From: Cladocopium goreaui
Taxonomy: Eukaryota; Sar; Dinophyceae; Suessiales; Symbiodiniaceae
Direction of reading: 5' to 3'
Assembly: GCA_947184155.2 (NCBI GenBank)
Contig: CAMXCT020000890.1
Coordinates: 162,438 to 226,437 of the forward strand
Length of the DNA stretch: 64,000 bases
The notes under the pieces were generated by a model. It saw only the letters and a program-made list of their open reading frames with translations. It made no database searches and had not been told where the DNA came from. Each line of letters opens with the position of its first letter. Position 1 is the first letter of the stretch. Shown here one piece after another: positions 48,101-51,100 of this stretch. Made by a program: the position numbers and the translations under genes.

Positions 48101-51100
48101 GGGCATAAGGTGCTACTACTCGCAGGTGGATGTTTTCTCGCTGAGCCAGCTGTGCAAATTGATCGGAACATAGGGCTGAAGCATTGTCCATGATTAATTG
48201 CTTGCTTGGACCGGCCCATCTGAACCAACAGTCATGACATGCTTCCCACAATGCTGTGGCATCTGTCTGAAACACAGGCATGGCAAGTTGAAAATTGGTG
48301 GCACTATCTACAAAATGGATACACTGGTGAGTCTTTCCGGTTTTGGCGGTCCAAGTAATCAGGTCACATCCAACACAATCGTTGAATTCACGCACTTCGG
48401 ACAAGGCTGCTGGGCGAGCAATTCGTGGCTCTTGCAGTTCATGGCATGTACTGCAATGGAAGTCTCCAACTCCTTGGATGATCTCGGGACTATACCCCTG
48501 TTGTTTCAATACCAGTTGTAGCTTCACGCTGCTGGGGTGTCCTAGGTTATGGTGTACCTTGGAGAGCCATTGACGGGTTACCTTATCCAGCTGTAAAAAC
48601 TTGGGACCATGAACGGCTTTTGAGGTTATCACTGATTTGGGTCTTTCTTCTGGGTCTTTTGGAATGCGGCTGTCATCGTCACCTTCCATGTGGGGTTTGT
48701 CATCGTGAGGTAACCTGCTACCTACTTGCAATGGGGCAGGTGCTGCACTTTCGGAAGGGGTCATTCGAGCCTGTTTGGATGTATCTGCATGATCTTGGTC
48801 TGAGATTACTTCATCTATGGATCTCTTCAGGTCATTTACCTCCTTGCTGGCAAAGACGGTCAACATCAAACGCATGGGAGGTGATTTGGCACATAGTTGA
48901 CGATTGCTCAAGTTCTCCCATTGCATCCAGGAGCCATTTTCGGTGGATTGCATGTCATGTCTCTGCAATCCCAGGGACAATCTCCATGGAGCCTCATGTC
49001 GAGCTAGTCGCACAGGTGGCTTACGGAAGCGATCTGTGCCTTTACACAGCTCGATGACTCGGACTCGGTAAGTTGGATAGGCTTGTTGCACTCTTTCAAA
49101 CAAATCGCCACGTTCAATCACCACTTTGCCTACCCTGGGGGCTATCTTCAAGCCAAGTTCTAAAAGTTCTTGATGGATTTGTTTGGCATCTTGGGCAACA
49201 GTCACCGATCCCGATTGAAAGGGAGGAGACAGCGAACTTGCAGCAGGCTGAGCAGCTTCCGGATATGCCGGAGGATTAGTGGTCTTTGAGCTCAGGCGTC
49301 GGCGCTTTGGCTCAGACTCATCGTCGTGTGGAACATCTTTTCCCTGCTTGACCCCATGAAACACATGACATGCTGGCACCAGTGTTTTCTCATGGATTTT
49401 CTTACTGGCCAAGATGATGCGGGCTACTCTTTGACCAAACACTCGGGTATATAGTTCCGTGTAAGCTGATACTTGGCCATATGTGCCGTCAGGGAGACGG
49501 CAGCTACCCGCGACTTGTGCATGTTCATGATTTCTGTGACATTTGAACTGGGATAGACCCTGATCCATAAGTTGAGATGTTGACAGGATATTCATGCTTT
49601 TCTGCATAGGCAAGTGACTAACAGGATGCTTCAGCTTCCCAGCACTGCACATGTCACATTCAATCTTGTTGGTGGATTCCACAATTGGTCTCAAGGGTTG
49701 TTCATAAAGCATTTCGGATCCTCTTGGCTGTTCAAGATGAAAGTGAAAAGCTGTTCCCATTTGGCATTGGTGAAGAAAGACTGCTTCGCACAAAAGTAAG
49801 TGGACTTCGTCATCACTCCGAGCCAGCATGACTCGCCGGGCACTCTCGGCAGATTTGCTCGCATTGAACTGGCTCCATTTGCACCAGGCTCGGCATCGAG
49901 GTGACATCCATACGTGACGAGGTCTGTGATAAAACAGCACATGATAGAGCTTTTGACGACCTTCCCACGTGCCTAAGTCTCCTTCCTTCAGACCAAAACG
50001 TACGGACTTCAACCCTTGCAGTCGGCATTGGTGTGTCAGTTGGCTATCAGCAGAGCAATACACTTCCAAAACATCGATGACGGGATTGAAAACTTTGATC
50101 AACTCTCCATGAGAGCTCAGGAAACCATGAGCATGACCAAACTGAATCATTTCTTGTTGGACCATATTGTGATTCACATGATTGATTTCCATTTCGTTCG
50201 GATCATCATCATCACTAGCCATGCCTAAATGGAGAACATATTGGTTGAACTCACGAATGCTCTGCTCGATCATTGATGTTTCCTGCCTACTGGTCACACC
50301 TGTCTGGCAGTCAGAACTTGCAGTTGCTGCATCACTTGGGCGAGGACATTCTCGATCTGGTCCAGGCGCTGCGCATTCTGCTCTTCCTTGATCGATGTTG
50401 CCGGCTCCAGTACTGGATCCCATGATTCCTCCTCCTCTTCCAGGTCGATGCAGTCCGTCGAAGTTCTCACAACTTTCCCACCTGCCGTTCCAGTCTTGGC
50501 CTTGGGCATCGCTTTGGCCATTGGTGTCTTGGCACGGTCTCCCAATTCCAGTTCTTTGCGATCCACCCATAGGGACAGAAAGTAGATGAACTCCGCATGC
50601 TCTGGCTTCTCGCTGGTCGCATACTTGCGAAGGAACCACTGGCAGTACTTCGGATCTTCGGTGACCACGGTCTGATAGGTCTGTCCGACCTTGGTGTCTC
50701 CAAACTTTATGGTCAGTGCGCCCAATTGCTCCATGTTCATATTCTGCAACTTGTTGGTGTGATCCTTCCGATCCTGAGCTTGGTTCACTGCACTGAAGCG
50801 CTCCGCAAGGTTCATCTCGGACATGGCAAGTAGATTCACTCGGCAGGGTCTCAAGTTGATCGATGGTCGTAGGCTGACGCTCCACTTCGGCCGAAATTCG
50901 CTCATTCATGTGACTGTTGATGGTGTTAGCAATTGACATGGTCGGTACACATGGTTGATCATGGACGTCTGTTTCACTGGTATGTTCATGTGACTGTTGA
51001 GACTTTGTACATAGGTGAGTGGAATTCAAATGATGTGGATTGGAGTGGATCTTGCCATCGGATTCAACGACTTCACTACTTCTTTCAGACTCGTTCTCCT

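Follow-up and report, generated by a model that had tools for sequence, protein, structure and literature searches.

The window analysed here, a stretch of 64,000 nucleotides from the dinoflagellate Cladocopium goreaui, carries on its minus strand a copia-type LTR element that spans positions 53627-44608. The element is bounded by a 5' LTR (53257..53627) and a 3' LTR (44608..44978), both on the minus strand, and since the two copies are 100% identical over their 371 nt, its insertion is recent. Between them lies gag-pol (45042..53105, minus strand), a single unbroken frame of 2687 codons with matches to Pfam families, in which a zinc knuckle, a weakly matched protease, an integrase and a copia-type reverse transcriptase (RT) follow one another in this order. 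The CCHC zinc knuckle of gag (residues 337-351, 52053..52097, minus strand) can be read in the translation as C-x2-C-x4-H-x4-C, and the corresponding zf-CCHC match (E 1.5e-3 and 4.3e-4) reaches 20.7 bits against a Pfam cut-off of 20.8. The protease-like stretch (residues 519-557, 51435..51551, minus strand) gives a weak match to RVP (E 0.17), and the integrase core (rve, residues 1588-1667, 48105..48344, minus strand, E 1.2e-8) and the reverse transcriptase (RVT_2, residues 2164-2385, 45951..46616, minus strand, E 1.9e-21) complete the polyprotein. With its LTRs, an integrase placed before an RVT_2-type RT, and a zinc knuckle in gag, the element belongs with the Ty1/copia elements. Its flanks, inspected for a target-site duplication, consist of AT repeats, and the sequence following the 5' LTR, inspected for a primer-binding site, starts with TGGTAGCGGAGCC, as noticed by eye only. 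A further region of gag-pol (residues 937-1250, 49356..50297, minus strand; about 310 residues) is conserved, with pieces 36-56% identical in the related loci L003-L020 described below; it matched no Pfam family and is thus a conserved pol region without a name.

Directly upstream of this conserved region, a second reading frame is open within gag-pol. The initial annotation had described a 203-codon ORF here, lying in the +1 frame on the same strand inside a gag-pol frame that stays open, and this geometry is borne out: gag-pol is a single ORF from 53105 to 45042, and the nested frame is open from 50905 to 50294 on the minus strand. The extent of 203 codons does not hold for the conserved product, as the ATG at 50905 is not conserved and the conserved start, ATG 50824, lies 27 codons downstream. 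We therefore define the conserved nested gene as 50294..50824 (minus strand, +1 of gag-pol), with 176 codons and a TGA stop at 50296-50294; the additional 5' extension (50825..50905, minus strand) is conserved among the relatives in L002 only.

Taken alone, the openness of the nested frame in this copy proves little. When the gag-pol protein was held fixed and its synonymous codons were shuffled 20,000 times, the nested frame was open in 7.6% (codons resampled) or 15% (codons permuted) of the shuffles, and the third minus frame also holds an ORF of 78 codons, so that low stop density contributes to the openness, as had been suspected from the outset. The reverse experiment is more restrictive: when the nested protein was held constant from 50824 onwards, an open gag-pol frame turned up in 0.4% of permuted and in 0 of 20,000 resampled sequences. 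Codon usage points to the nested frame as well. Under a codon model trained outside the region, the nested frame takes over from gag-pol as the best one at about 50844 and yields to it again at about 50300, with a frame-switch score of 12.6 compared with at most 4.5 in 19 other windows. In the version trained on the rest of gag-pol, the gag-pol frame was best in 114 of the 115 windows taken outside the region, and each of the eight windows starting from 50885 to 50465 favoured the nested frame, with margins of 0.3 to 24.6.

Relatives were sought in a single genome, the 1.17-Gb one to which the window belongs, and those found there share ancestry by descent. Searches with the nested protein gave at least 150 scored matches (645 candidates), and a distant family member used as the query likewise gave at least 150 (669 candidates), overlapping with the first set; the open frames that hold the matches listed are mostly about 180-280 codons long. 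We retrieved 66 loci (referred to by L numbers), comprising 60 main and six more distant ones. Across the match, 52 of the 60 main loci are without a stop in the nested frame and 58 of 60 without one in gag-pol, whereas the third frame contains 6-16 stops in 60/60. The complete arrangement, with an own ATG at the conserved start, 150-215 codons, an own stop and not a single gag-pol stop, is present in 51 of the 60, and the third frame over the nested ORF of these intact loci carries 5-14 stops. In the nine remaining loci (L003, L004, L023, L043, L051, L054, L058, L059 and L060) the arrangement is broken or changed. In each of the six more distant loci, the nested ORF has an ATG and a stop of its own and gag-pol is free of stops across the match; open nested frames persist at only 21-25% identity to the window protein. 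In the deeper pairs, about every second codon differs at its third position.

The host context is likewise shared, since the gag-pol protein matched on both sides of the overlap in 19 of the first 20 loci and on the downstream side only in L016. Approaching the family from the RT, 48 relatives were found in frames of at least 2500 codons among the matches listed (5220 candidates), of which, by a hand count within those matches, 27 have a nested match upstream and 21 do not. Nesting within gag-pol is not absolute, given L058 (2522-5314) and L059, where the nested frame continues into pol and the gag-pol frame ends just past the module, which there shares the frame of pol but not that of gag. 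L058 has its long frame in common with one sibling; L059 represents an altered copy within an otherwise normal sibling group.

These relatives settle, at the level of sequence comparison, that the nested ORF is more than chance. A fortuitously open frame permitted by low stop density, for which the shuffles and the 78-codon ORF of the third frame can be cited, is refuted by their conservation, codon periodicity and stop counts, and we give it a next to negligible probability.

The alignment of related elements proposed in the initial annotation, with synonymous and non-synonymous changes compared in both frames, places the constraint in the nested frame. By simple counting in 13 pairs, dN/dS in the overlap has a median of 0.12 (range 0.06-0.18) for the nested frame and of 1.76 for gag-pol over the same bases; downstream of the overlap, gag-pol returns to a median of 0.06 (computable for 10 of the 13 pairs). 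Because these ratios come from simple counting, the value of 1.76 is a reflection of the nested constraint and not of positive selection. The position of the substitutions tells the same story. Upstream of the overlap, substitutions per codon at gag-pol positions 1/2/3 amount to.101/.085/.216 and downstream to.079/.056/.263, whereas within the overlap they amount to.209/.065/.062 (16 pairs, in two of which a gag-pol stop shortens the compared overlap to 27 and 31 codons). In close pairs, substitutions fall at nested position 3, and the pattern is thus not that of selection on gag-pol only: the periodicity flips to the nested frame where the two frames overlap. Neither of the outcomes named in the initial annotation as refuting it, nested-frame stops in related elements or a signal of selection confined to gag-pol, was therefore observed, 52 of the 60 loci being free of such stops.

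Gag-pol is nevertheless kept open. After collapsing loci with a protein similarity above 0.93, 44 of the 60 remained as non-redundant, and across their overlaps we counted 10 gag-pol stops, compared with 234.9 expected when the synonymous codons of the nested protein were permuted; the control third frame showed 395 stops against 356.2 expected. The deficit is significant (P <0.05) in 43 of the 44 loci. From the low nested dN/dS together with the rarity of gag-pol stops, the alignments show the nested protein to be under purifying selection, and they show gag-pol over the nested gene to be selected chiefly to lack stops, in the manner of a linker that must stay open. This bears on a scenario in which both frames would yield one polyprotein, the ribosome shifting +1 into the module and -1 out of it. 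Such a product would account for protein-level constraint on a module inside pol, but a stop closes the nested ORF in the 51 intact loci and the scarcity of gag-pol stops indicates that reading proceeds through the overlap in the gag-pol frame itself, which makes this scenario very improbable.

The start of the nested gene is conserved as well: an in-frame ATG stands at the place of 50824 in 42 of the 44 loci (L003 and L023 are without one), and the nested frame upstream of the conserved start is not conserved. In eight loci (L011, L015, L026, L036, L044, L052, L057 and L059) it is even closed 7-11 codons before the conserved motif. Directly before the nested start lies an AUG-free leader (50825..50902, minus strand), the last upstream ATG in this copy being that at 50905. 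Within 60 nt upstream of the nested ATG, the 42 leaders contain a single AUG between them (L051, at about -48). Thinning by shared 6-mers reduced the 42 leaders to 29 independent ones, with the AUG-bearing L051 among those dropped, and these 29 hold no AUG in their last 60 nt, whereas windows of 60 nt located farther upstream hold 37.9 on average. Correspondingly, Met codons of gag-pol number 0 of 609 in the leader zone and 147 of 6117 upstream. When gag-pol codons were resampled from upstream usage, 7.6 AUGs were predicted in the leaders and zero was never reached in 3000 trials. In a milder control, in which the synonymous gag-pol codons of each leader were permuted among themselves, 3.1 AUGs were predicted and zero was reached, so that the residues and codons chosen for gag-pol already account for part of the depletion.

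The AUG-depleted stretch looks like the 5' leader that a scanning ribosome would traverse, and its length fits the 50-100 nt given as usual for dinoflagellate 5' UTRs in the relevant part of PMC6050394. As the nested start is preceded by 2.2 kb of gag-pol in which AUGs are numerous, we infer a separate short RNA, and the nested protein would then be translated from an mRNA of its own with a short leader, the 5' end of which may lie about 60-80 nt upstream.

The initial annotation had allowed for an extra protein made by internal initiation or by frameshifting. Programmed +1 frameshifting operates between gag and pol of yeast Ty1, and here it would produce a Gag-protease-nested fusion ending at the nested stop, setting the Gag:Pol ratio at the same time. 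The nested frame does lie exactly +1 of gag-pol, and in L058 and L059, where it runs into pol, pol would need entry into the nested frame. A fusion, however, requires no start codon, yet the ATG is kept in nearly all loci; it would have to pass through a frame that is closed shortly before the motif in eight loci and lacks conservation upstream; AUG depletion of the leader would serve no purpose for it; and no shared slippery heptamer was noticed by eye in the aligned loci. We consider frameshifting unlikely and favour internal initiation, because the ATG is conserved, the nested frame is closed upstream of it and the leader is depleted of AUGs.

As to the origin of such a short-leader RNA, trans-splicing is perhaps the readiest source in a dinoflagellate host. 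The short mRNA would most likely arise through trans-splicing of the host spliced leader onto an acceptor inside the gag-pol RNA; alternatively, an internal promoter could supply it. The 21-nt dinoflagellate spliced leader is present in 172 copies in the genome (a reversed control gave 0), which itself identifies the organism as a dinoflagellate. Matches to a spliced-leader relic upstream of the nested starts were at background, the highest being those of L012 and L014 (12/15), and no fixed splice acceptor was found in the leaders. Separately, the motif YCAAG/YCAAAG is enriched at about -70 to -30, occurring in 19 of the 29 leaders against a mean of 5.9. Near -60, YCAAG stands mostly in one gag-pol phase that codes for Ser-Ser, and the enrichment is confounded by gag-pol coding; it may reflect a protease site, an acceptor or descent.

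The nested protein starts with a helix and continues with a helical domain and a basic linker; an acidic stretch, in which a Trp is conserved, then leads to the long helix at the C-terminus. An alignment was built from the nested proteins of 41 loci out of the 66, with the window copy standing for L001; broken, over-long and near-duplicate proteins were left out, as was L066. Of these 41 family members, 30 are matched by PF20600 (ExoX-like_C) at E values up to 1 (best 1e-4) and 26 by the NCBIfam ExoX model. The window's own protein had no match to PF20600 in the Pfam searches, and its residues 25-69 match the NCBIfam ExoX model at E 0.045-0.058, far under the model's cut-off, covering only positions 160-203 of the 220 in the profile. 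No exonuclease catalytic-domain family was among the Pfam matches listed for the nested proteins (the best 25 of 40 families). The AlphaFold2 model rose from a pLDDT of 50.6 with the sequence alone to 75.4 with the family alignment, with block means of 91-96 for residues 21-90 and of 68 for residues 91-100. Its best match in a viral library is a pithovirus protein (E 5.8e-3, prob 1.00), and it also matches a phage protein named for an ExoX-like C-terminal domain (E 0.056, prob 0.98).

The ExoX profile, PF20600 in the relatives and the model together delimit a helical ExoX-C-like region at about residues 25-98 (50531..50752, minus strand), and the model places the long C-terminal helix at residues 142-175 (50300..50401, minus strand), where we read it as a coiled coil; chains of coiled-coil regions are among the weak profile matches of the nested protein. 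The protein thus resembles the C-terminal domain of ExoX with a long helix added. The likeness to PF20600 lies in the profile matches of the family and in the phage protein of that name matching the model, and the differences lie in the missing profile match of the window member and in the additional C-terminal helix. The nested protein may oligomerise through this helix, and its ExoX-C-like domain could bind nucleic acid or a pol product, making it a putative cofactor of assembly or replication. In the open-access literature searched, we found nothing beyond a TREX1 paper that connects ExoX with retrotransposons.

The resemblance to a domain known elsewhere, together with the small constraint on gag-pol residues, suggests that the nested frame came first. 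The proposal in the initial annotation that gag-pol was overprinted across it thus seems likely: a once free-standing module would have entered gag-pol out of frame, after which gag-pol was extended across it. ExoX-like_C places above the Pfam cut-off number at least 49 in the genome (393 candidates); the surrounding open frame measures 55-403 codons for 25 of them and 823-3059 codons for the other 24. A reading of the matches listed found no overlap between these 49 places and the nested-protein matches. The long frames, observed on contigs C151, C2946, C4863, C6195 and others, suggest a second architecture of the module in the same genome.

These places speak against too simple a history, and an in-frame ancestor that was later put out of frame is possible too. 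In a variant of this history, the module originally shared the gag-pol frame and was left behind as a dead relic by paired frameshift mutations. The 24 modules in long frames would agree with such a beginning, and changes of frame do occur (L058-L060), but a dead frame would hardly show the low nested dN/dS found in all 13 pairs, nor conserved starts and stops and open frames in the most divergent relatives, and we regard a relic as highly unlikely.

Taken together, these results make it very probable that the nested ORF is a real gene. The sequence evidence leads us to consider it likely, with good though not full confidence, that it represents a genuine accessory gene of a large dinoflagellate copia family, overlapped and overprinted by gag-pol and separately expressed, with gag-pol over the nested gene acting as a read-through linker that would join gag-protease to integrase-RT. 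A more specific version, in which a widespread dinoflagellate copia clade expresses the nested gene as a separate capped mRNA through borrowed host spliced-leader trans-splicing, and gag-pol came to be written over a captured gene, is offered tentatively, at rather less than even chances.

Overlaps that are both large and conserved are familiar above all from viruses. The nearest design appears to be that of the hepadnaviruses, where, in the portions of PMC5604429 concerned with it, the PreS/S gene lies within the polymerase gene P. Both cases involve a complete +1-frame gene inside the replication polyprotein of a reverse-transcribing element, placed partly over a spacer, with selection against stops in both frames. 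PreS/S, as presented in those portions, differs in being an envelope gene of a DNA virus that arose as a de novo novelty on the older P and lies partly over the essential RT. Here, unlike PreS/S, the nested protein resembles a known domain, gag-pol appears to be the overwritten frame, and the host is a copia LTR retrotransposon.

Accessory genes are also found among LTR retrotransposons themselves. In plants, the additional ORFs treated in PMC7264820 are placed there between pol and the 3' LTR, unlike the nested ORF, which lies wholly inside gag-pol; bdelloid LTR retrotransposons have accessory ORFs called ORF3 in the account of PMC5408684. The word "overlap" is absent from the main text of either article. 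Among dinoflagellates, the DNMT-bearing retrotransposons of Symbiodinium, in the sections of PMC5890265 that describe them, are similar in having captured a protein domain. They differ in being LINE and DIRS elements, whose methyltransferase is encoded either by an ORF upstream or as an in-frame part of Pol, and the abundant Copia elements of Symbiodinium are given in the same sections as being without DNMT. We found no report of an ORF nested within a copia gag-pol in the open-access literature, subscription literature being outside the scope of the search; within that literature, a nested gene of this kind, about 180 codons long and retained inside gag-pol down to 21-25% amino-acid identity, would be unreported for a copia LTR retrotransposon.

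The family provides many natural replicates for measuring selection on two frames. It also makes a question testable, namely whether mobile elements in trans-splicing hosts can open internal genes by spliced-leader addition. If the trans-splicing reading is true, a retrotransposon would gain a second cistron without promoter, intron or frameshift.

Other repeats of the window lie outside the copia element. A tandem repeat block at 22999-27489, with units 77-100% identical, is G+C-rich compared with its surroundings and includes a direct duplication of 986 nt (25520-26504 / 26504-27489, 99.3%). Dispersed repeats of about 100 nt, roughly 85-93% identical and in both orientations, occur at 591, 4849, 7797, 9487, 32848, 39346 and 56837.
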